Notes under the pieces: generated by a model | Seen by the model: the letters and a program-made list of their open reading frames with translations, nothing else | The model's database searches: none | Told to the model about the DNA's origin: nothing | In this document: positions 10,118 through 22,635 of the stretch, piece by piece | How the letters are laid out: every line of letters starts with the position of its first letter | Position numbering within the stretch: the first letter of the stretch is position 1 | Origin: an uncultured Coriobacteriaceae bacterium | GTDB lineage: Bacteria > Actinomycetota > Coriobacteriia > Coriobacteriales > Coriobacteriaceae | Reading direction: 5' to 3' | DNA: 64,000 bases | Assembly (NCBI GenBank): GCA_944319885.1 | Contig: CALUFC010000001.1 | Location: forward strand, 372,001 to 436,000 | Made by a program: the position numbers and the translations under genes

Positions 10118-10596
10118 TGCACGTGCGCGACCTGCTTGACGAGCGCCGTGCGCAAGCGGTGGTGGAGATGGCAATCGTCACACCGGTCCTCATCGTGCTG
10201 GCGCTCATCTCCTGTAACCTCATGATCTTCGCGGCGGCGGTTGCGCGGTTCGACCGCGTGGTGCCCGATATCGTGCTGGCGCATGCGGTATCGCCCGCTG
10301 GCATGGCAAGTGCATCTGGCGAGCAGGATGTCACAGAGGTTGTTGCCGCCCAGATCGAGCAGGCCATGGCGGGCTACGACGTTGAGATCACGGTCGAGCG
10401 GAGCATCGGGGCGGGTGAGGATGGTGGCGGCATGCTCGCTCTGGTGGGAGCACTGCATACCTATCGTTGCACGATGTCGTACGCGCCGTGGCCCGGTGGC
10501 CTGTCCATTGCGGGGGTGGATACGGGGTCGCCGCTCGCGCTCAAGCACGTGCGCGAGACGGTGCTCGACCCCTGGCGTCCGGGAGTGGTGATGTGA
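10114..10596 (+). CDS. Second TadE-like pseudopilin
   Basis: 160 residues from ATG 10114 (ATGA overlap with the preceding stop); a second ATG at 10117 is equally possible. GAAGGGA at 10102-10108 supports either. RRAQAVVEMAIVTPVLIVLALI is a TadE-type processing site plus membrane helix, with the conserved Glu. The remainder is an exported domain with a single Cys. Its stop TGA shares its A with the next ATG. It is the second TadE-like protein in the operon, suggesting a multi-subunit minor-pilin complex. Confidence 0.82.
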   Translation: MMHVRDLLDERRAQAVVEMAIVTPVLIVLALISCNLMIFAAAVARFDRVVPDIVLAHAVSPAGMASASGEQDVTEVVAAQIEQAMAGYDVEITVERSIGAGEDGGGMLALVGALHTYRCTMSYAPWPGGLSIAGVDTGSPLALKHVRETVLDPWRPGVVM

Positions 10597-10949
10597 TGGC
10601 GCGCTCAGCGGAGATTGAAGCGATCGCGCGGGGGCTTGATGAACTGGGGTGGCAGGCTAACCGCGTTGTGGTGGCTACCGGCTTTTGGCGGCGTGCCCTA
10701 GGGCTCATAGGGCTCTCGTGGCGCATGCGGCACGTGCGTGGAACGGGCCGTACCGGAGAAGGCACACGGCGGGCACATGTCGTCATGGTCTTTCCACGCT
10801 GTTCCTCGGTGCACACCTTCTTCATGGGATGCTCGATCGATATCGCGTTTATTGGCAGAGATGGCGCGGTGCTACAGGTGCATGGCGAGGTAGGGCCGGG
10901 ACGGGTGCTCAGGGCGTCGGAGGCTTTGGCCGTTATCGAGCGCATATAG
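10596..10949 (+). CDS. DUF192 family protein
   Basis: 117 residues from ATG 10596, overlapping the previous stop by one base. The DUF192 core is visible as VMVFPRCSSVHTFFMGCSIDIAFIGRDG followed by a Gly/Arg strand and a conserved C-terminal helix; the TFFM element is the most typical feature. DUF192 proteins are small beta-rich proteins of unknown biochemical function, usually exported, but this one has no evident signal peptide. As last gene of the pilus operon it may help secretion or assembly; that is inference. Confidence 0.8.
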   Translation: MARSAEIEAIARGLDELGWQANRVVVATGFWRRALGLIGLSWRMRHVRGTGRTGEGTRRAHVVMVFPRCSSVHTFFMGCSIDIAFIGRDGAVLQVHGEVGPGRVLRASEALAVIERI

Positions 10950-11146: not shown

Positions 11147-12394
11147 ATGGAGTTGGAGATGCGGTTGTTCAAACGTGAGAACTACCTTAAGAACATCAGA
11201 GGGTTCTATCACGATGACGGGATGATAAAAGTTATTACCGGCGTGAGGCGCTGCGGGAAGTCTTGTTTCATGCAGACGATCTCCCAAGAGCTCGTCGAAA
11301 ACGGTGTCGATCCCATTTCTATTATCTATATCGATCTTGATGAACGGGGCTTCCGTTCGGTAAAGACCCCTGATGCCCTTGAAGCGGCTATCGACGCCCT
11401 GACGGACGATGCTTCGGAAGGACTTCGATACTTGTTTATCGATGAGATCCAGAACATTAAAGGCTACGAGGAGGTCGTGAACGCCTACCGCAATGAAGGT
11501 GGCTGGTCCATTTTCATCACCGGCTCCAATAGTTATCTACTCTCCGGTGAGCTTGCGACCAAGCTTACCGGTCGCTACATCGAGTTTGAGATGCAGACGC
11601 TTACTTTCAGGGAATACGAGGAGATGAAGGCATTTTTTGGCAAGCCAATCGATTCAAATCTTACTGCTGAATTCGATGCTTACATATTGGAAGGAGGTTT
11701 TCCTAAGGCTCTCGATTACGAGGTTCTTGCTGATAAGCGGACCTATGTGAAGTCTGTAGTTGAGGAGATCTTGGAGAAAGATGTTCGACGTAGGGTCCAA
11801 GTTCGAAATATGTCCGTGTTCGAGACGGTGAGGAAATACATTACGAACAACTTTGGGGCGACAACAAGTCTGACGAACATTCTCGCGGACCTTGCAAAGC
11901 AAGGAGTCAACCTCAAGCGCGAGACGCTGGCCCGCTACGTCAAAATTCTAGAGGACGCAAAGATTGTGAGAAAATGTGAGCGCTTTGATATGAAGTCTAG
12001 AAGGTCACTCCGTGGCGAGCAGAAGTTCTATCTCGCCGATTTGAGCTTCTATTTTGCGCTCAATACCGACAACCGCATCAACTACGGGCCGGTGCTCGAG
12101 AACATCGTTTACAGCTATGCGAGGAGCTTGGGTTACGAGGTGAGCGTGGGGCGCATCGGCAAACTCGAGTGCGACTTCGTCATGCGATCGCCCGAGATGG
12201 ATTACTCTTACATACAAGTCGCAATGACTATCATGGGCGACCGAGCAACGGAAGAACGTGAATATCGCTCGCTTGAGCAAATTCGCGATAACTACCCGAA
12301 GTACGTTATTACTCGAGCGGACCCCATTCAACACCGAAGCGGCATCAAACATGTGAACGCCCCGGATTTCATGATGGGAAACAGAATGTTCTAA
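11147..12394 (+). CDS. AAA ATPase with DUF4143 domain
   Basis: 415 residues from ATG 11147; ATG 11159 is an alternative and neither has a strong ribosome site. The N-terminal AAA domain has Walker A VRRCGKSCF (about 30-38), Walker B LFIDEIQN (about 99-106) and the sensor region FITGSNSYLLSGELATKLTGR. The C-terminal DUF4143 part carries a winged-helix segment and a nuclease-like ending (GKLECDFVMR). Such ATPases are common in gut bacteria and archaea; their role is unknown, with links to mobile DNA and defence suggested. The first two thirds use clearly more A/T-ending codons than neighbours, a sign of transfer. It stands alone between the Tad operon and tRNA-Phe, a typical insertion neighbourhood. 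Confidence 0.88.
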   Translation: MELEMRLFKRENYLKNIRGFYHDDGMIKVITGVRRCGKSCFMQTISQELVENGVDPISIIYIDLDERGFRSVKTPDALEAAIDALTDDASEGLRYLFIDEIQNIKGYEEVVNAYRNEGGWSIFITGSNSYLLSGELATKLTGRYIEFEMQTLTFREYEEMKAFFGKPIDSNLTAEFDAYILEGGFPKALDYEVLADKRTYVKSVVEEILEKDVRRRVQVRNMSVFETVRKYITNNFGATTSLTNILADLAKQGVNLKRETLARYVKILEDAKIVRKCERFDMKSRRSLRGEQKFYLADLSFYFALNTDNRINYGPVLENIVYSYARSLGYEVSVGRIGKLECDFVMRSPEMDYSYIQVAMTIMGDRATEEREYRSLEQIRDNYPKYVITRADPIQHRSGIKHVNAPDFMMGNRMF

Positions 12395-12429: not shown

Positions 12430-12444
12430 ATGGGGAACAAAGGG

Positions 12445-12517
<73 letters not shown>

Positions 12518-12664
12518 ACGTGCCGTCAAGCGACGAGTATCTACTATATCAAATCAAATGATTCGGTCAAGCACCCAAATGCGTCTTTTCAAAAAAGCTC
12601 GGCTGCAATGGTTTTCCATCGCAGATGGGGCAGGGTGCTATCGGGGCCATCTTTTTCACGCGAC

Positions 12665-12694
12665 TTGGACCGGTCTTTGCGGCTTGGGTATACT
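12665..12694 (+). promoter_or_regulatory. Promoter of the GH5-like gene
   Basis: TTGGAC (12665-12670), 18-bp spacer, TATACT (12689-12694); the start codon lies 34 bp downstream of the -10. This is one of the best sigma-70-type promoters in the window. Confidence 0.65.
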
Positions 12695-12727
12695 CAATGC
12701 ACAGTAATTCGAGTATGGGGAGGCGAT

Positions 12728-13792
12728 ATGGCGGAGCGGATTCGAGGGGTCAACCTGTCGGGTTGGTTTATTCCCGAGCCCTGGGTAACGCCATCGCTCT
12801 TTGCCGCCACGGGCGCGTCGAACGAGGCCGAGCTTCAAGACGCACTGGGCGCAGCCGAGTATAACGAGCGCATCAGGCATCACTACGAGACGTTTATCAC
12901 CGAAGATGATTTCAGGCGCATGGCAGCGATCGGGCTCAATGCCGTACGGCTGCCGGTGCCCTGGTATGCATTCGGCTCGCAGAGCGAGTCGGAGGTATAT
13001 ATCCCCGTGGTCGACTATATCGACCGCGCGTTTGAGTGGGGCGAGAAATACGAGGTTCGCGTGCTGCTGGACTTGGCAACGGTGCCTGGCGGCCAGGGTG
13101 ACTCCAATGCCACCTCCACCACGCCCGAGAGCACGGCGGCCTGGCATTCGTCGACCAATGGGCGCCATATCGCACTTAACGTGCTGGAGCGCTTGGCGGC
13201 GCGCTACGGGGCGCGTCCCAACCTGCTGGGTATCGAGCTGCTCGATTCTCCGGTCATGAGCACGCGCAAGGGGCTGTTCGCTACCTCGGAGGGTATTCCT
13301 CGGCACTACCTGCGCAACTTCTATCGCGACGCATATGAGCTCGTGCGCATGCACATGGCAAACGATAAGCTCGTGGTGTTCTCGGCATCGGGCAATCCCG
13401 CCGCGTGGAAGCACTTCATGAGCAGCTCCAAATACGTCAACGTGTGCATGGACATCCACCTCTACCACCATCGCGGCGAGCACGCGCAAGAGATCACGAG
13501 CCCGCACGGGCTCTCGGCGGCGCTTGCCCGCAATCGCAAACTCATTCGCGAGGCGCGTCTCGCGGGGTTCCCCGCTATCGTGGGCGAGTGGTCGGGCGCG
13601 GCGGTGTTCTCCAACGCCTCCATTACGCCCGAGGGCCGCACGGCGTATGAGCGCGTGTTCATTTCCAACCAGCTCGCTTCGTTTGCTGAGGCCCGCGGTT
13701 GGTTCTTTCAAACATGGAAGACCGAAAAGCGCATTCCCGCTTGGGACGCGCGCGCCGCGCTGGGCACGCTCGAGCGCGCGATGATCGACTAG
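12728..13792 (+). CDS. GH5 (exo-1,3-glucanase-like) protein with altered active site
   Basis: 354 residues from ATG 12728, with GGGGAGG 5 bp upstream; no signal peptide, so cytoplasmic. It is recognisable as the exo-beta-1,3-glucanase branch of glycoside hydrolase family 5 by GVNLSGWFIPEPWVTPSLF (7-25), GLNAVRLPVPW (69-79), DIHLYHH (242-248), the nucleophile motif GEWS (E287) and FFQTWKTE (326-333). Two catalytic-site changes stand out. The NEP motif that supplies the acid/base Glu reads DSP (173-175), so Ser174 replaces the Glu. The DLH motif reads DLA (115-117). A retaining glucanase with these changes should be inactive or use another mechanism. It may be a sugar-binding or regulatory protein. 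Only 35 bp separate it from rsmI. Confidence 0.82.
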   Translation: MAERIRGVNLSGWFIPEPWVTPSLFAATGASNEAELQDALGAAEYNERIRHHYETFITEDDFRRMAAIGLNAVRLPVPWYAFGSQSESEVYIPVVDYIDRAFEWGEKYEVRVLLDLATVPGGQGDSNATSTTPESTAAWHSSTNGRHIALNVLERLAARYGARPNLLGIELLDSPVMSTRKGLFATSEGIPRHYLRNFYRDAYELVRMHMANDKLVVFSASGNPAAWKHFMSSSKYVNVCMDIHLYHHRGEHAQEITSPHGLSAALARNRKLIREARLAGFPAIVGEWSGAAVFSNASITPEGRTAYERVFISNQLASFAEARGWFFQTWKTEKRIPAWDARAALGTLERAMID

Positions 13793-13827: not shown

Positions 13828-14769
13828 ATGCTGCATGGCGACGGTGCCCGGGACGGCGCGCCGCGCCATGGTGCCGTGCCGCGCACCGGCAAGCTTGTGA
13901 TCGTGGGGACGCCCATCGGCAACCTGGGCGATCTCTCGCCGCGTGCCGTTGCGGCGTTTCGTGCGACAGATGCCATCTGCTGCGAGGACACGCGCGTTAC
14001 CGCCAAGTTGCTGGCGCATGCCGGCATTTCCAAACCGCTCATGCGGTGCGACGAGAACGTGATCGCCGCGCGCTCGGAAGCCCTGGTAGCGCGTATGGAG
14101 GCGGGCGACGTGCTCGCCTTCGCCTCCGATGCGGGCATGCCGGGTGTTTCCGATCCCGGCCAGGTGCTCGTGGACGCTGCCCGTGCAGCGGGCGTGCCGG
14201 TGGAGGTGATTCCGGGGCCGGTGGCATGCATCACCGCGCTCGTTGCCTCGGGCATTCCCTGCGAGCACTTCTTCTTCGAGGGCTTCTTGCCGCGCAAGGC
14301 CGGCGAGCGCACGAGACGGCTGTCCCAGCTTGCCGCGGTGCCGGGGGCGCTGCTTTTCTATGAGTCGCCGCACCGCGTAGCCGCCACGCTCGCCTCAATC
14401 GCCGCGGTGTTCCCCGCGCGCGAGGTGGCGCTCTGCCGCGAGCTCACCAAGCTCCACGAGGAGGTGCTTCGTGCGCCCGCGCCGGAACTGGCGGCGCTCG
14501 TGGACGCCCGTGGCGAGCTCAAGGGCGAGATGGTGATCGTAGTTGCCCCGCCGAGCGTCGAAGACGAGCTCGCCGCCGTCTCCGCAGCGGCCGCGTCGGG
14601 TGCACCCGAAGACCGCGATGCCGCTCTGGCGCATGACATCGAAGAGGCGCTCGCACAGGGCAAGAGCGCTTCGGCCGTCGCCAAGGAGCTTTCGCAGCGC
14701 TATTCCCGTCGTCGTCGCGAGGTGTATGGGCTCGTGCTGGCCGCGCAAGAGCGGATAGGCGGGCGCTAG
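13828..14769 (+). CDS. rsmI: 16S rRNA 2'-O-methyltransferase RsmI
   Basis: SAM-dependent tetrapyrrole-methylase-fold enzyme that 2'-O-methylates C1402 of 16S rRNA. 313 residues from ATG 13828 with GAGGA 5 bp upstream. Motifs: LVIVGTPIGNLGDLSPRA near the N-terminus, CEDTRVTAKLL, ASDAGMPGVSDPG, VIPGPVACITAL, FFFEGFLPRK and LLFYESPHR. All are standard for RsmI. The C-terminal ~70 residues include the usual basic helical region ending SQRYSRRRREVYGL. A housekeeping gene; it ends 67 bp before metG, and TAGAAT near 14784 could be the -10 of a metG promoter. Confidence 0.95.
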   Translation: MLHGDGARDGAPRHGAVPRTGKLVIVGTPIGNLGDLSPRAVAAFRATDAICCEDTRVTAKLLAHAGISKPLMRCDENVIAARSEALVARMEAGDVLAFASDAGMPGVSDPGQVLVDAARAAGVPVEVIPGPVACITALVASGIPCEHFFFEGFLPRKAGERTRRLSQLAAVPGALLFYESPHRVAATLASIAAVFPAREVALCRELTKLHEEVLRAPAPELAALVDARGELKGEMVIVVAPPSVEDELAAVSAAAASGAPEDRDAALAHDIEEALAQGKSASAVAKELSQRYSRRRREVYGLVLAAQERIGGR

Positions 14770-14836: not shown

Positions 14837-16462
14837 ATGGACCACGCTCAGCCGTCGTACTACATCACCACACCCATCTACTATGTGAACGCCAAGCCCC
14901 ATCTGGGGACGGCGTACTGCACGGTGCTGGCCGACGTTCAGGCGCGGTTCCGCCGTTCGTGCGGGTACGATGTCAAGTTCCTCACCGGCATGGATGAGCA
15001 CGGTGAGAAGGTGGCCGAGGCCGCCGAGAAGAACGGCTTCGATACCCCCCAGGCATGGTGCGACCACATGGAGCCCGCTTTCCGCGACCTATGGGCCGAG
15101 CTCGAGGTCTCTAACGACGACTTCATTCGCACCACTCAGCCGCGCCACATCGCTGGCGTGCAGCAGTTTTTGAAGGTCCTGCTCGATCGCGGCTACATCT
15201 ACAAGGATGCCTACGACGGCTGGTACTGCCGCCCGGATGAGACCTACTTCACCGAGACGCAGGTACGCCATCACGAGGAGGAGCGCGTCGCCGCCGGCGA
15301 GGCCCCGGCCGATCCCGAGCATCCGCTCTGCCCCGATTGCGACCGTCCGCTCGAGCGCATCAAGGAGGAGAGCTGGTTCTTCAAGCTTTCCGCGTTTCAG
15401 CAGCCGCTGCTCGATTTCTATGAGGCGCATCCCGATTTCATCCAGCCCGAGACGCGCCGCAACGAGGTGCTCTCGTTTGTGAAGGGCGGCCTCAAGGACC
15501 TCTCCATCAGCCGCTCGACCTTCGACTGGGGCGTGCCGTTTCCGTTCGATGAGAGGCACGTTGCCTACGTGTGGGTCGATGCCCTCATCAACTACCTCTC
15601 GGCCGTGGGTTACGGTGCGGAGGGGCAGGACGCAGCCGATACACTTGCGTTCCGCTGGCCTGCGCAGGTGCACGTGGTGGGCAAGGACATCATCCGCTTC
15701 CACTGCGTGATCTGGCCTGCTCTGCTCATGGCGGCAGGGCTCCCGCTGCCCGAGAAAGTCTTTGTGCACGGCTTCCTCACGGTGCGCAACGAGGAAACGG
15801 GCAAGGTCGAGAAGATGAGCAAGAGCCGCGGCAACGTGATTGCTCCGCAGGAGGTCGTGGAGCTGTTGGGGGTCGACGCGTATCGCTACTATTTCATGAC
15901 CGACGTGACGCACGGCGCCGATTCGCCCATCTCGTGGGGCCGTATGCGCCAGGTGTACAACGCCGATCTCGCCAACAGCTGGGGCAACCTCGTGTCGCGC
16001 ACGCTCAACATGAGCGCGAAGTACTTCGACGGCTGCGCACCCGAGCGCCCGGCGACGTTTGATGAGCCGTCGCCCTTGCACGATGCGTGCGCGGGCATCT
16101 TCGAGCGCTACGCGGCGCGCATGGAGGCCATGGATTACGGCGGAGCGGCGGCCGAGGTGCTGGGGATCGTCTCGGCGGCAAACCACTATATCGAGGATAT
16201 GGCGCCGTGGGCGCTCGCGAAGGATCCCGCGCGTGCAAACGAGCTGGCGCAGGTGATCTGGAATCTGCTCGAGGTCATTCGCATCGCCGCCGAGCTCTAC
16301 GAGCCCTTCATGCCGAGCATCTCGGCCGAGGTGCGCCGCCGTCTGTCGTTCGACGCGGCACCCACGGCCGACCTTGCTGCCGCGTGCACGTGGGGCGGCC
16401 TTGCCGGCGGGAAGCCGGTGGAGAAGGGCGCGCCGCTCTTCCCGCGTCTCACCGACGAGTAG
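14837..16462 (+). CDS. metG: Methionyl-tRNA synthetase
   Basis: Class I synthetase that charges tRNA-Met and initiator tRNA. 541 residues from ATG 14837, with GGAAGGA upstream; ATG 14804 in the same frame is possible but less well placed. The HIGH-type motif is HLGT (22-25) and the KMSKS loop is intact (about 326-330). Only one CxxC pair (CPDC, about 167-170) remains in the connective peptide, so the zinc knuckle is of the reduced type seen in Thermus- or Bacillus-like enzymes. There is no C-terminal tRNA-binding (Trbp111-like) domain, and the protein stops soon after the anticodon-binding helices. Confidence 0.96.
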   Translation: MDHAQPSYYITTPIYYVNAKPHLGTAYCTVLADVQARFRRSCGYDVKFLTGMDEHGEKVAEAAEKNGFDTPQAWCDHMEPAFRDLWAELEVSNDDFIRTTQPRHIAGVQQFLKVLLDRGYIYKDAYDGWYCRPDETYFTETQVRHHEEERVAAGEAPADPEHPLCPDCDRPLERIKEESWFFKLSAFQQPLLDFYEAHPDFIQPETRRNEVLSFVKGGLKDLSISRSTFDWGVPFPFDERHVAYVWVDALINYLSAVGYGAEGQDAADTLAFRWPAQVHVVGKDIIRFHCVIWPALLMAAGLPLPEKVFVHGFLTVRNEETGKVEKMSKSRGNVIAPQEVVELLGVDAYRYYFMTDVTHGADSPISWGRMRQVYNADLANSWGNLVSRTLNMSAKYFDGCAPERPATFDEPSPLHDACAGIFERYAARMEAMDYGGAAAEVLGIVSAANHYIEDMAPWALAKDPARANELAQVIWNLLEVIRIAAELYEPFMPSISAEVRRRLSFDAAPTADLAAACTWGGLAGGKPVEKGAPLFPRLTDE

Positions 16463-16521: not shown

Positions 16522-16541
16522 TTGCACCTAAAGGGGATCGC

Positions 16542-17426
16542 ATGACCACCTCGCCACTTGCCAACCTCGCCGCCACGCGCGACCTGCTCGATGAGTTTGG
16601 GCTCGCCACCAAGCACCGGCTGGGGCAGAACTTCCTCATCGACAACCATGTGATCGAGCGCATCATGGCGCTTGCCGAGCTCACGGGTACCGAGCGCGTG
16701 CTCGAGGTGGGTCCGGGCATTGGCACGCTCACGTTGGCGCTTGTCCACGATGCGGGGCGCGTGGTTTCCATTGAGATGGACCGCGAGCTCGAGCCGGTGC
16801 TCGCGGCGCACGAGGCTGACTACGCGAACTTCCGCTACATCATGGGTGACGCCCTCAAGGTGCCGTGCGCGCAGATCGAGGAGGCGGCAGGCGGCGCGCC
16901 AACCGTGCTCGTGGCGAATCTGCCCTACAACGTTGCCGCAACGATCATCCTCGACTTCTTCGAGCGGATGCCCGCGCTCGAGCGCGCGGTGGTGATGGTG
17001 CAGAAAGAGGTCGCCGATCGCATTGCCGCGGCGCCGGGGAGCAAGGTGTACGGTGCCTACACGGTCAAGCTGGCGCTTCACACCCAGGTGACGGGACGCT
17101 TCGAGGTGCCGCCGCGCTGCTTCATGCCCGCGCCGCACGTAGATTCCGCCGTGGTGCGGCTCGATCGCCGTTCGCTCGCGCTGCCGGCGGGGCTTAGCAT
17201 CTCCGATGTGTGCCGCGTGGCCGATGCCGCCTTCGCGCAGCGGCGCAAGACCATTCGCAATTCCATGGGCGCGCGCGGCTTTGATAAGGCGGCGCTCGAT
17301 GCGGCGTTCGAGCGCTGCGGCATTGCGCCCACGGCGCGTGCGGAGACCCTGGCACTCGAGGATTTCGTGCAGCTCGCTGCCGCCTTGGCCGAAGAGGGGA
17401 GCGGGGAGGTGCTCCATGGGAACTAA
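16542..17426 (+). CDS. rsmA: 16S rRNA dimethyladenosine transferase RsmA (KsgA)
   Basis: Dimethylates A1518 and A1519 of 16S rRNA late in 30S maturation. 294 residues from ATG 16542, with AAAGGGGA upstream. Motifs: HRLGQNFL (28-35), SAM motif I LEVGPGIGTLT, the acidic end of strand 2 SIEMD, the catalytic NLPYN and the C-terminal RRKTIRNS. Everything typical of the family is present. The last 11 bp overlap the TatD gene, so the two are co-translated. Confidence 0.96.
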   Translation: MTTSPLANLAATRDLLDEFGLATKHRLGQNFLIDNHVIERIMALAELTGTERVLEVGPGIGTLTLALVHDAGRVVSIEMDRELEPVLAAHEADYANFRYIMGDALKVPCAQIEEAAGGAPTVLVANLPYNVAATIILDFFERMPALERAVVMVQKEVADRIAAAPGSKVYGAYTVKLALHTQVTGRFEVPPRCFMPAPHVDSAVVRLDRRSLALPAGLSISDVCRVADAAFAQRRKTIRNSMGARGFDKAALDAAFERCGIAPTARAETLALEDFVQLAAALAEEGSGEVLHGN

Positions 17427-18492: not shown

Positions 18493-18832
18493 GGAGCATG
18501 CGCAGGGCGCAGTTTGATGCGCGCTTTACGCATTTGATGCTGAGCAGACATCCACTGGGCGTTTTCTTACGCGCAGAGCGTATCCATTGCGCAGCAGTTA
18601 CGGGATCACGCGGCTACCCAAAGATTCATCGACCTTGTGAGCGCATTGTTAGCGTTGCCCTTGATGTTGCGTAAAACTTGGTAACCGCAGCGCAAGGCAT
18701 GGCGTACGAGGTGTTTGCGATGCGCTTTGCGCGTCTACCATCGTCTCCGGATTGAGGCGACCGCAAAGGGTGCGGCTCGCTTTCAGAGGTCTCGTCGTGC
18801 CCAAGGGGTGCGACGCGCGAAAGGAGACAAAG
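18493..18832. other. Leader region upstream of the phn operon
   Basis: 340 bp without a credible gene. Just before phnD a hairpin, GTCGTGCCC then GGGTGCGAC with two wobble pairs (around 18793-18815), stands close to the AAGGAG ribosome site. TTGCG and CGCAA flank about 20 bp around 18672. I see no convincing Pho box or known riboswitch. As the only sizeable gap before 13 co-directional genes, it must hold the operon promoter. Confidence 0.45.
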
Positions 18833-19939
18833 GTGAAGAGCATCACCGATATCCAGATTTCCCGTCGTTCCTTCCTCGGCCTGTTTGGCGTGAGCGCTGC
18901 TGTTGTCGGCCTTGGTCTGGCTGGTTGCGGCAATGACGCCGGCAAGGGTGGCGCCGCCACCGAGGGCGATGCCGCCGCAGCAGACACCGCCGCTCTCGAC
19001 AAGATCACCATGGTCTGGCTGCCCAACGAGTCCGCCGCCGAGTTCGACGCGGGCCGCGAGGAGTTCGGCCGCGTCCTCTCCGAGTATGCCGGCATCGAGG
19101 TCGAGCTCATGACCACCACCGACTACAACGTGGCCATCGAGGCCATCTCCTCCGGTAAGGCCCAGATGGCCAACCTGGGTGCCGAGGGCTACATCCAGGC
19201 TCAGGAGAAGAACGAGAACGTGCATGCGCTCTTCACCACGTCCGACACCGAGGGCACGCTCGATGGCGCTATGTACTACAGCCGCATCGCCGTGCCGGCC
19301 GACCAGATGTCCGAGTACGAGGATGCCGAGAGCGCAACCGGTTACTCCATCGCCAACATCAAGGGCAAGCGCATGAGCTTCGTGTCGCAGACCTCCACCT
19401 CCGGCTTCAAGGTTCCCTGCAACGCCATCATGGAGCAGTTCCCCGACGAGGTGACCTCCACCGACGAGCTCGCCCAGCCCGGTTTCTTCTCCCAGGTTCT
19501 CTTCGGTAACTCCCATCCCGGCTCCTGCGTGAACCTGCTGCAGGGCGACGCCGACGTGGCCGCCTTCGACGACATCGACGTCGACATGTATCTCGCCGTT
19601 CCCGAGGGCGAGCGCAACGCCGTGAACCAGCCCGGCGCCATCTATGGCGTTGCCGAGGGTGCGGCTCAGCCGTTCGACCGCGTTCAGGGCAAGGAGTTCG
19701 GCATCATCAGCTCCACGCCCGTTCTCAACGGCCCCATCGTCTACAACGCCGACGTGCTGCCCGAGGACATCAAGGACAAGATCCTCGAGGGCATGACCTC
19801 CGCCGATGTTGCCAACAACGAGCAGCTCTTTGCCCCGGAGGATGCCGAGGGCACCGGCGCCATCTGGAGCAAGGGTGACACCGCCGGCTTCATCGCTGTC
19901 GAGGACGAGTGGTACGACCCCATCCGCGAGCTTGCGTAA
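18833..19939 (+). CDS. phnD: Phosphonate ABC transporter substrate-binding lipoprotein
   Basis: Captures phosphonate outside the membrane for the PhnCE importer. 368 residues from a GTG at 18833, with AAGGAG 6 bp upstream. The start is chosen because it begins just before a signal peptide with SRRSFLG (10-16), a hydrophobic core and the lipobox LAGC (Cys32), i.e. an acylated, possibly Tat-exported lipoprotein. The mature part has the PhnD/SsuA-type fold: SAAEFDAGREEFGRVLSE, MTTTDYNVAIEAISSGKAQMANLGAEGY and TSTSGFKVPCN. First gene of the C-P lyase operon. Its codon use is strongly biased to the preferred set, consistent with high expression. Confidence 0.92.
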   Translation: MKSITDIQISRRSFLGLFGVSAAVVGLGLAGCGNDAGKGGAATEGDAAAADTAALDKITMVWLPNESAAEFDAGREEFGRVLSEYAGIEVELMTTTDYNVAIEAISSGKAQMANLGAEGYIQAQEKNENVHALFTTSDTEGTLDGAMYYSRIAVPADQMSEYEDAESATGYSIANIKGKRMSFVSQTSTSGFKVPCNAIMEQFPDEVTSTDELAQPGFFSQVLFGNSHPGSCVNLLQGDADVAAFDDIDVDMYLAVPEGERNAVNQPGAIYGVAEGAAQPFDRVQGKEFGIISSTPVLNGPIVYNADVLPEDIKDKILEGMTSADVANNEQLFAPEDAEGTGAIWSKGDTAGFIAVEDEWYDPIRELA

Positions 19940-19962
19940 GTCGCAAAGAGCGTAGGTTGCAT

Positions 19963-19989
19963 GCGGTCCGTCGTATCCCGGCGGACCGC
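19963..19989 (+). terminator. Hairpin between phnD and phnC
   Basis: GCGGTCCG (19963-19970) pairs with CGGACCGC (19982-19989) around an 11-nt loop, with no T run. Such a hairpin after a binding-protein gene usually protects or separates an abundant binding-protein message from the downstream transporter genes. Confidence 0.5.
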
Positions 19990-20015
19990 TTGTGTTCGAA
20001 GGGACACGATTTCGC

Positions 20016-20915
20016 ATGAGTGAGAATCAGATGCTGCTTGAGGTGCAAGACCTCGGCAAAAGCTACGATGCGCCGCGCCGCCGCAACAAGGCTGCCACCG
20101 ACGCCACGTCTGGCACGCCGCGCGCGCTTTCAGGCGTGAGCTTCACGGCGGGTCAGGGCGAGTTCATCACGGTGATCGGCCCCTCAGGCGCCGGCAAGTC
20201 AACCTTGCTGCGCTGCCTGAACCGCCTGATCGAGCCCACGGATGGCGTCATCAACTTCAACGGACGCGATATCACGCATCTGCCGAACGGCCGCCTGCGC
20301 AAGGTGCGCCGCGAGATTGCCATGATCTTCCAGAACTACAACCTCGTGTACCGTCTTACGGCCATCCAGAACGTGCTGCACGGGCGCCTTGGCTACAAAA
20401 ACGCGCTTGCCGGCAGCCTCGGTCTCTATACGGAAGACGAGAAGGCTCGCGCCTTCGAGCTTCTGGACGAGGTGGGCTTGGGCGAGTTTGCCTACCGTCG
20501 CGCCGACCAGCTCTCGGGTGGCCAGAAGCAGCGCGTTGGCATTGCCCGCTCGCTCATGCAGGATCCCAAGGTCATGCTTTGCGACGAGCCCATTGCAAGC
20601 CTTGACCCCAAGAGCTCGCGCATGGTCATGGAGACGCTCCGCCGTCTCACGCGCGAGCGCGGCATCACCTGCATCGTGAACCTTCATCAGGTTGATTTTG
20701 CACTCGAGTATTCCGATCGCATCATTGGCCTGCGCGCAGGCGAGAAGGTGTTCGAGGGCACGGCGGACGAGACAACCCCGGCGGTCATCCGAAGCATCTA
20801 CGAGGGCGATGCCGAGGTTATGGTCGATGTTCCGGTTGAGATGCCCGAAGCCGCCGGTTCGCCGATCGAGGCGGGTGCGTTCGCAGCCGAGCCTGCCACG
20901 GGAGGTGCCCAATGA
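20016..20915 (+). CDS. phnC: Phosphonate ABC transporter ATP-binding protein
   Basis: Energises phosphonate import through PhnE. 299 residues from ATG 20016; a GTG at 19992 in frame is less likely. Walker A GPSGAGKST (55-63), signature LSGGQKQRVGIARSL, Walker B VMLCDEPIASLD and the H-loop region NLHQVDFALEYSDR are all present. A 16-residue basic insertion (about 21-36) sits where most PhnC proteins have a tight turn before the first strands. The C-terminal ~35 residues are an acidic Ala/Glu tail. It overlaps phnE1 by 4 bp (ATGA). Confidence 0.93.
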   Translation: MSENQMLLEVQDLGKSYDAPRRRNKAATDATSGTPRALSGVSFTAGQGEFITVIGPSGAGKSTLLRCLNRLIEPTDGVINFNGRDITHLPNGRLRKVRREIAMIFQNYNLVYRLTAIQNVLHGRLGYKNALAGSLGLYTEDEKARAFELLDEVGLGEFAYRRADQLSGGQKQRVGIARSLMQDPKVMLCDEPIASLDPKSSRMVMETLRRLTRERGITCIVNLHQVDFALEYSDRIIGLRAGEKVFEGTADETTPAVIRSIYEGDAEVMVDVPVEMPEAAGSPIEAGAFAAEPATGGAQ

Positions 20916-21757
20916 GTGCGGAGGCACAGGCGCTGCAGGGCGCCCCGGGCAATGGGCGTGCGCGCACGGTCGATCTTGCATGGTTTCGCCGCCGCCAGAT
21001 CAGGACGATCTTAGGGGTAGTCGCTGTTGTTGTAGCGTTCCAGCTCTGCTCGATGGTATGCAATTTCAGTCTCACCTATGCTATCGGGTCGGTTCCGGCG
21101 GCCTTTGTTTGGATGTTCCAGAACTTCATCCCCACCGCCGAGTCGCTTGCCAACTTCTCTTTGGTACTCGAGCAGACCATCTCGACGGCGCTCGATTCCG
21201 TGGCAGCAACGGTAATTGCCGCGATCGTGGGCATTGTGCTTTCGGTGCTCGGCTCCTCAACGATCGGCGTATCGTTCGCGCCGGTGCGCGGGCTTATCCG
21301 CGCCATCGCGAGCATCTTCCGCAACATCCCCATGATCGCCTGGGCGCTGCTTTTGCTGCTCTCGTTCAAGCAGAACGAGTTCACGGGCTTCCTCGCGCTC
21401 TTCTTGACAACGTTCGGCCAGCTCACCCGGTTTTTCCTCGATACGTTCGATGAGATTCCAACCGGTCCCATCGAGGCGCTCAAGAGCTGCGGCGCAAGCT
21501 ACTGGCAGATCGTGTTCCAGGCGGGACTGCCGCTGGCGGTGGCCGACCTCATGAGCTGGATGCTTTACATGGTGGAGACCAACATCCGTTCGGCTACGCT
21601 CATTGGCCTGCTTACGGGCACGGGCATCGGCTTTGTCTTCAATCTGTACTACACGTCGTTCCGCTACGACACCGCCGGCCTTGTGATCGTGGTCACCATC
21701 GTGTTCGTACTCGTGATCGAAGCGGTTTCCAACGTGGCGAGGAGGTCGATGATCTAA
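20912..21757 (+). CDS. phnE1: Phosphonate ABC transporter permease, first copy
   Basis: Membrane channel half of the phosphonate importer. 281 residues with about six helices; the first is at about 33-52. The EAA loop contacting PhnC is visible as GPIEALKSCGASYWQIVFQAGLP. The start is ATG 20912 in the phnC stop, and the stop TAA shares its last base with the ATG of the second permease. The two permeases are similar but clearly diverged, so they most likely form a heterodimer. Confidence 0.92.
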   Translation: MSAEAQALQGAPGNGRARTVDLAWFRRRQIRTILGVVAVVVAFQLCSMVCNFSLTYAIGSVPAAFVWMFQNFIPTAESLANFSLVLEQTISTALDSVAATVIAAIVGIVLSVLGSSTIGVSFAPVRGLIRAIASIFRNIPMIAWALLLLLSFKQNEFTGFLALFLTTFGQLTRFFLDTFDEIPTGPIEALKSCGASYWQIVFQAGLPLAVADLMSWMLYMVETNIRSATLIGLLTGTGIGFVFNLYYTSFRYDTAGLVIVVTIVFVLVIEAVSNVARRSMI

Positions 21758-22635
21758 TGACGTCTGTCACGCTTTCCGAGCGCACCGCCGCGGTGCTCGA
21801 GCGCGATTTCGCAGGGCGCATCCGTGTGACGGGCCGCGCCGGGCGCAACATCTCCGTGCAGTTGACGCTGATCGTGCTCGTGGTGCTTACATTCGTGACG
21901 TTTGCCCGCATGGGGTATGGCACGGTTGATCTTATCCAGGCGGCGCGCCAGGCGCTCGCCGACTTCGGCGCCATGATGCTCCAGCCGGCGCTCGATCGGC
22001 CGCTTGGTGCGGGGCACTTCACATGGGCGACGGTGATGGAGAGCATGCTCATCACCATTGCCGTGACGGCGCTCTGCACGGTCATCTCGGCCATCGTGTC
22101 GTTTTTCCTCGCGCTCGCCGCATCGGAGAACCTTTCGAGCTCGGCGGTGTCGAACGTGGTGAAGGGCATCGTCGCCATCATCCGCTCCATTCCTACGATT
22201 TTGTGGGTCCTCGTCTTCACCGTTGCGATCGGTCTTGGTTCCGAGGCTGCCGTGCTTGGTATCTCGTTCCACTCCATCGCCTACCTCACCAAGAGCTACT
22301 CCGAGAGCTTTGAGGAAATTGACGAGGGCGTGATCGAGGCCCTGCGCGCGAGCGGCGCGAGCTTCTGGCAGATTGTGTTCCAGGCAATTGTGCCGGCAAC
22401 CATCACCAAACTGCTCTCGTGGACGTTCATCCGCCTCGAGATCAACTTCACGAACGCCGTCGCCGTGGGTGCCTTCGCCGGTGCGGGCGGTATTGGCTTC
22501 CAGCTCTACCAGGCGGGCAGCCGTTACTACAACCTGCACGAGGTGGGTGTCATCGTGTACGCATGCCTCGTCGCAGCCTTCGTGCTTGAGTACGTGAGCG
22601 TGCAGCTGCGCAAGAAATACATCCTGAACGACTAA
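21757..22635 (+). CDS. phnE2: Phosphonate ABC transporter permease, second copy
   Basis: 292 residues, partner of the preceding permease. Its EAA loop is GVIEALRASGASFWQIVFQAIVP, nearly the same as in the first copy. Helices are placed alike, with the first at about 30-50. The ~84-bp gap after it before phnG is the largest gap inside the operon apart from the phnD-phnC hairpin, and could hold a secondary promoter, but I see none that is convincing. Confidence 0.92.
   Translation: MTSVTLSERTAAVLERDFAGRIRVTGRAGRNISVQLTLIVLVVLTFVTFARMGYGTVDLIQAARQALADFGAMMLQPALDRPLGAGHFTWATVMESMLITIAVTALCTVISAIVSFFLALAASENLSSSAVSNVVKGIVAIIRSIPTILWVLVFTVAIGLGSEAAVLGISFHSIAYLTKSYSESFEEIDEGVIEALRASGASFWQIVFQAIVPATITKLLSWTFIRLEINFTNAVAVGAFAGAGGIGFQLYQAGSRYYNLHEVGVIVYACLVAAFVLEYVSVQLRKKYILND

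Follow-up and report, generated by a model that had tools for sequence, protein, structure and literature searches.

A conserved, probably inactive glycoside hydrolase family 5 barrel encoded beside rsmI in Coriobacteriaceae and Atopobiaceae

Results

Fold and active-site residues

The locus analyzed here raises the question of what role a protein with the fold of an exo-beta-1,3-glucanase can play once part of its catalytic machinery has been replaced and its gene stands directly ahead of one for an rRNA methyltransferase. The gene, hereafter pseudo-GH5, was found in a 64,000-nucleotide stretch (the window) of a contig from an uncultured Coriobacteriaceae bacterium. It occupies positions 12728-13792 of the forward strand, with an ATG at 12728 and a TAG stop at 13790-13792 in the translation of the window, and encodes a protein of 354 aa that was assigned through its reading frame, profile searches, and sequence and fold comparisons. 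It is a single copy gene in its own genome, and among the matches listed its nearest named relatives by identity belong to Enorma and Collinsella, so that the genome is probably one of Enorma or of a genus close to it.

The protein matches the Pfam profile PF00150 at 30.3 bits (cut-off 23.5), and phmmer related it to exo-beta-1,3-glucanases (6zb9, E = 5e-40; 8z2w, E = 1.8e-39), enzymes that, along with 1eqp, presumably belong to subfamily GH5_9. Its predicted structure (pLDDT 89.7) superposes on 6zb9 with a Z score of 39.7 and an rmsd of 2.5 A over 334 residues, with Candida Exg entries following at Z 36-38. The likeness to the moose-rumen enzyme (6zb9), Aspergillus oryzae AoBgl (8z2w) and Candida albicans Exg (1eqp) extends over the full-length fold (Z 36-40, rmsd 2.4-2.6 A, 27-31% identity), and includes the N-terminal GVNL-GW-EPW-TPSLF block and the Arg/His/Tyr/Glu/Trp half of the pocket. 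A profile score above the curated cut-off and a predicted (beta/alpha)8 fold thus place the protein in the GH5 fold family, whereas NCBIfam offered no convincing family for it or for two of its relatives.

Eight residues, which we take to be Arg, His, Asn, the acid/base Glu, His, Tyr, the nucleophile Glu and Trp, make up the GH5 catalytic set. The window protein retains Arg74, His244, Tyr246, the nucleophile Glu287 and Trp330, and differs from the aligned enzymes at three positions, with Ala117 in place of the His, Asp173 in place of the Asn and Ser174 where they have the acid/base Glu, so its signature reads RADSHYEW, which is not that of a catalytically competent GH5 enzyme. The DLA (115-117) and DSP (173-175) motifs face DLH and NEP in the alignments with 6zb9 and 1eqp, and GEWS lies at 286-289. 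A preliminary description of this DNA had reported Ser174 in DSP, Ala117 in DLA and the retained E287 of GEWS, naming every one of these residues correctly, and had overlooked both the replacement of Asn173 by Asp, which is a third loss, and the disappearance of the pocket loop SQNGFDNxG, which connects strand 3 to helix 3 in intact relatives, is absent from the window protein, and is replaced or deleted throughout its clade. Its placement of the protein in the cytoplasm agrees with our analysis, as no signal peptide is visible and the first barrel strand begins at residue 5 of the predicted structure. Unlike exo-beta-1,3-glucanases, pseudo-GH5 therefore lacks the DLH His, the Asn-Glu pair and the SQNGFDNxG loop, appears to be cytoplasmic, is linked to rsmI, and has many relatives in which the nucleophile is absent as well.

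Conservation of the losses among orthologues

A single genome-contig scan, in which relatives outside Actinomycetota were also covered, yielded 79 distinct loci (best 80 of 87), to which whole-genome searches added others. Among 102 distinct orthologous sequences, the DLH His was kept in none, the Asn of the Asn-Glu pair in two, the acid/base Glu in 29 and the nucleophile Glu in 70, and no sequence held all eight residues together; Arg74 and Trp330, on the other hand, were present in all 102. Both glutamates were found in 15 sequences, all of them Atopobiaceae-type, which may therefore still be active. The Coriobacteriaceae pattern consists of Ala117, D(S/T)P and GEWS, the sole exception being locus L123, with Ala at both glutamates and Phe in place of Tyr. 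Most Atopobiaceae-type orthologues carry Lys, Ala or Ser for the nucleophile, and the structure predicted for one with Lys is still a barrel of high confidence (pLDDT 88.1). The residues of the pocket are not the same in the two families, and 52 columns are invariant across 29 representatives.

Intact NEP and DLH motifs in orthologues, which according to the preliminary description would have pointed to a recent loss or a sequence error, were thus searched for among these sequences and not found, and conservation of the changes in 102 distinct sequences rules out both explanations. The change of function proposed from the window alone gains support from losses conserved clade-wide. A sugar-binding or regulatory function, also suggested there, is possible. 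The third suggestion, that of an unusual hydrolase, loses ground, since the nucleophile has disappeared as well from other lineages of this orthologue.

A tree was built from 72 proteins, comprising 61 rows of the clade and 11 intact paralogues from the same two families (L127, L129-L136, L138 and L139; 27-34% identity to the window protein). The pseudo-GH5 clade was split from the intact paralogues at 100/100 support; the program cautioned that L130, a long row among the intact ones, leaves the connection between the two halves of the tree uncertain. Coriobacteriaceae and Atopobiaceae were sisters in this tree, the arrangement that vertical descent would be expected to produce. The rows without nucleophile form one Atopobiaceae clade of 25 rows (100/97) plus the separate L123, implying at least two losses of this residue. 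The intact paralogues share the fold family with pseudo-GH5 and differ from it in that RHNEHYE is always complete where the columns are covered, and in that rsmI was found on none of their 17 short loci. One intact-type paralogue (L137/L142; G291:C1:107038-107957) extends over two overlapping frames, reflecting a frameshift or an assembly error. In the phylum beyond the two families, 13 genomes gave weak matches (E 7e-21 to 5e-15; 396-genome draw), and the seven of these that were fetched have the Arg, His, Asn and acid/base Glu, the other residues being unaligned in most.

Distribution and selection

The two families that carry the gene are bacteria of gut and mouth. It is present in 65/65 Coriobacteriaceae genomes (family f1). 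In family f2, which comprises the Atopobiaceae records plus Kribbibacterium, 133 of 140 genomes gave a match (99/101 among good assemblies); by score, three of these matches (G389, G783 and G772) are another protein, and two are fragments, one cut by a contig end (G264) and one adjoining rsmI (G769), with about 130/140 genomes holding a true member of the clade. Those lacking it are all five genomes of genus g41, G760 (57% complete) and G776. In a draw of 396 Coriobacteriia genomes, the 169 with a match all belonged to f1 or f2. Frames are full-length and stop-free also in reduced genomes, and a genome of 1.0 Mb (G253) still carries the gene. One Coriobacteriaceae assembly contains, on a contig of 3.8 kb (L128, G192:C124), a second pseudo-GH5-rsmI pair that is of the Atopobiaceae type and probably a contaminant.

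Comparison of the window with six close relatives gave NG86 omega values of 0.017-0.111 for pseudo-GH5, 0.115-0.214 for rsmI, 0.040-0.130 for metG and 0.090-0.201 for rsmA, values that are rough in the five more distant comparisons because synonymous divergence exceeds 1; pseudo-GH5 thus ranks below rsmI, mostly below rsmA, and about level with metG. Across the divide between the families, the protein has changed faster than its neighbors, with 41-46% identity compared to 52-57% for RsmI. Loss of catalytic residues, conservation of the gene and strong purifying selection, as read from sequence, make it very probable that pseudo-GH5 is a pseudoenzyme without hydrolase activity. Because PF00150 matches occur in every Coriobacteriaceae genome and in nearly all Atopobiaceae-type ones, and a search with this profile assigns the protein to the cellulase family of glycoside hydrolases, tallies of carbohydrate-active enzymes in the gut that rely on such matches would include a probable non-hydrolase.

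Linkage to rsmI

The strongest clue to a function, which the preliminary description did not see, is an invariant link with rsmI. In the window, the gene for the 16S rRNA (cytidine(1402)-2'-O)-methyltransferase (rsmI, 13831-14769, forward strand) starts 38 nt past the pseudo-GH5 stop, and is followed on the same strand by metG, encoding methionine-tRNA ligase (14840-16462), and by the 16S rRNA dimethyltransferase gene rsmA/ksgA (16536-17426; TIGR00755, 240.8 bits, cut-off 171), the starts of all three having been placed by eye. Pseudo-GH5, rsmI, metG and rsmA, in this order, constitute a translation and rRNA-modification cluster. The RsmI encoded downstream is an ordinary one by the curated model TIGR00096 (215.6 bits, cut-off 167.9), and also matches PF00590. 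The metG gene of Collinsella exists in two versions, with about 84-90% or about 65-67% identity to that of the window (L025, L033, L046, L056 and L058), which do not track the other genes and look like gene replacement.

Same-strand adjacency is conserved without exception, rsmI being the next gene in 103 of 103 distinct orthologues, with 11-272 nt (median 40) separating the end of the pseudo-GH5 match from the point where RsmI homology begins. Gene order of this kind suggests co-transcription of the two genes and, in several species, translational coupling, as stop and start overlap in a TGATG at L183, L151, L154 and L071. The third gene is less constant: of the 81 loci with room for it, 54 have metG no more than 500 nt behind rsmI, and in the others it is in part 600-1000 nt away and in part beyond the fetched stretch. 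At L012 and L016, where metG and rsmA sit upstream in inverted orientation, pseudo-GH5 and rsmI are still paired. No fusion of pseudo-GH5 with rsmI was found among 158 loci (duplicates included).

In contrast with the pseudo-GH5 clade, 15 rsmI loci of Eggerthellaceae-type and f12 genomes show no GH5 companion. A scan for a GH5 relic near rsmI in Eggerthellaceae-type, f12 and g41 genomes gave nothing above noise in 19 of 20 loci, the one real match being a gene truncated at its contig end in an f2 genome (L199), and searches with seven frames upstream of rsmI in Eggerthellaceae-type genomes returned nothing informative.

Natural loss in genus g41

Genus g41, the one genus to have lost pseudo-GH5, which all five of its genomes lack, is a natural test case for dependence of one gene on the other. 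The rsmI gene is present in four of the five, so that RsmI occurs here without the GH5-type protein. At these loci (L200-L203), it lies behind a 6-pyruvoyl-tetrahydropterin synthase-like (PTPS/QueD-like) gene and ahead of a HAD hydrolase gene; by eye, a PSP1-like gene is also found upstream. As the pair is kept in 103/103 orthologues, and in g41 rsmI is relocated and pseudo-GH5 gone, either the pair stays whole or the pseudo-glycosidase is lost. The g41 RsmI carries only two clade-wide changes at conserved columns, a weak comparison given that g41 itself is outside the set that defines conservation. Acquisition of a foreign RsmI as the cause of the loss was ruled out, since the g41 protein groups with L070 inside Atopobiaceae (96/94).

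Discussion

Possible role of the pseudo-glycosidase

We propose that loss of the hydrolase residues of the GH5 barrel started in the ancestor shared by Coriobacteriaceae and Atopobiaceae, and that the protein was inherited vertically and may have been recruited to a non-catalytic, cytoplasmic role, co-expressed with RsmI. As a scaffold or a binding protein, it would then take part in the step catalyzed by RsmI, in which C1402 of assembled 30S subunits is 2'-O-methylated, either by binding RsmI or the 30S particle, or by sensing a ligand in its remodelled pocket and tuning methylation. Taken as a whole, this reading of a conserved pseudo-glycosidase recruited to RsmI-dependent 30S maturation is a plausible one that we hold tentatively. 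A role linked to RsmI or to the 30S subunit in some form, to which gene order points, is possible and likewise tentative, and direct partnership with RsmI is doubtful. Comparably unlikely is the most far-reaching version, in which a whole bacterial lineage would have made a beta-glucanase barrel into a dedicated cytoplasmic cofactor of 16S rRNA methylation, forming a near-obligate bicistron with RsmI, its former sugar pocket reshaped into a new interaction site. That the protein is inactive, touches RsmI or the 30S subunit, or binds a ligand is in each case inferred, whereas the lost residues and loop, the conservation, the strong purifying selection and the fixed place beside rsmI are seen in the sequences themselves.

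The RsmI-linked role is favored because rsmI is the only constant partner gene. Residues conserved only within the clade lean to the catalytic face (25/36, odds ratio 2.4, p-value 0.02, with segment borders drawn by hand), mostly in loops and strand ends (Gly12, Trp79, Arg146, Arg180, His193, Gly222, Thr300-Gly303 and the FQTWKT strand), which suggests that the old barrel mouth is a conserved binding surface. Counting against this role, g41 and Eggerthellaceae have RsmI without pseudo-GH5, and adjacency of genes is evidence of likely co-expression rather than of contact. Recombinant RsmI from elsewhere methylates assembled 30S subunits, in passages of PMC5053481 that name no partner of this kind, so pseudo-GH5 would be a lineage-specific addition. 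Distances between pseudo-GH5 sequences correlate with those of RsmI overall (partial r 0.70), but within families they follow rsmA (0.53 vs 0.30 for rsmI) or metG (0.62 vs 0.17 for rsmI) more closely, a result that lends no support to direct contact. The idea that the pocket binds RNA or phosphates through positive charge was also considered and is unsupported: the net charge of the catalytic face is -10.5, the same as in intact relatives, which gives no indication of RNA binding at this face.

The absence of special co-evolution with RsmI within families suits a different explanation, in which the protein would be a cytoplasmic regulator or bind a sugar, a sugar phosphate or another metabolite, and merely share an old, stable operon with rsmI. 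This account, a serious possibility that we consider almost as likely as the RsmI-linked role, draws further on the fact that Coriobacteriaceae still have half of the -1 subsite (Arg74, His244, Tyr246, Glu287 and Trp330) and on the same lean of clade-specific residues to the catalytic face. It fits less well with the persistence of the rsmI link in the 27/81 loci where metG is not close behind, and the loss of the SQNGFDNxG loop together with pockets that differ between families argues against one conserved sugar ligand. A remnant of catalysis is improbable: Glu287, found in all Coriobacteriaceae sequences examined except L123, might work with another acid, or on a substrate that needs no acid help, as an unusual hydrolase or transglycosidase, and 15 Atopobiaceae-type sequences even have both glutamates; yet the His, the Asn and the pocket loop are also gone, and the 25-row Atopobiaceae clade and L123 lost the nucleophile while keeping their place beside rsmI. 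That the gene is a decaying passenger, kept only since rsmI uses its promoter, would agree with its loss in g41, whose rsmI has come to lie behind a different gene, but is very improbable in view of omega values as low as those of metG, 52 invariant columns over 29 representatives, and stop-free, full-length frames even in reduced genomes.

Non-catalytic relatives of glycosidases include the GH18 chi-lectins, narbonin, xylanase-inhibitor proteins and heparanase-2, which are mostly eukaryotic and secreted, and belong to other GH families. As in pseudo-GH5, their barrel has outlived the catalytic residues, in their case being used for binding; unlike them, pseudo-GH5 is encoded by a bacterial core gene for a predicted cytoplasmic protein, tied to an rRNA methyltransferase gene. 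If the link with rsmI is functional, this would be, to our knowledge, the first glycosidase fold in ribosome maturation, as we know of no earlier one. A literature search over titles and the beginnings of abstracts found no description of the protein. The link can be tested directly, because intact paralogues, orthologues without nucleophile and a natural loss in g41 are all available.

Upstream region and wider window

Upstream of pseudo-GH5, a promoter-like site (TGGACC-17-TATACT, 12666-12694, forward strand) matches 9 of 12 positions, and a search of both strands of the region found two sites compared to a shuffle mean of 0.4. By eye, TATACT could also be spotted in the roughly 140 nt surrounding the start codon in nine of the 11 sequences aligned, among them that of the window. 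The preliminary description had credited the gene with a good promoter of its own; such a site does exist, although by itself it is no evidence of function. A Shine-Dalgarno-like GGGGAGG (12717-12723, forward strand) precedes the ATG. The divergent upstream neighbor is a tRNA-Phe (gaa) gene (12442-12518, reverse strand), and a tRNA-Phe was located near pseudo-GH5, on either strand, in 16 of 27 related loci scanned.

Between this tRNA gene and a cluster that by eye is pilus-like lies an AAA_14/DUF4143 ATPase gene (11147-12394), which was not found at the same place in the compared loci. The end of the pilus-like cluster (10467-10946) has a weak DUF192 match (23.3 bits, cut-off 27). Beyond rsmA, positions 18752-22635 encode a substrate-binding protein, an ATPase and two permeases that by eye resemble a phosphonate (phnDCE) transporter.
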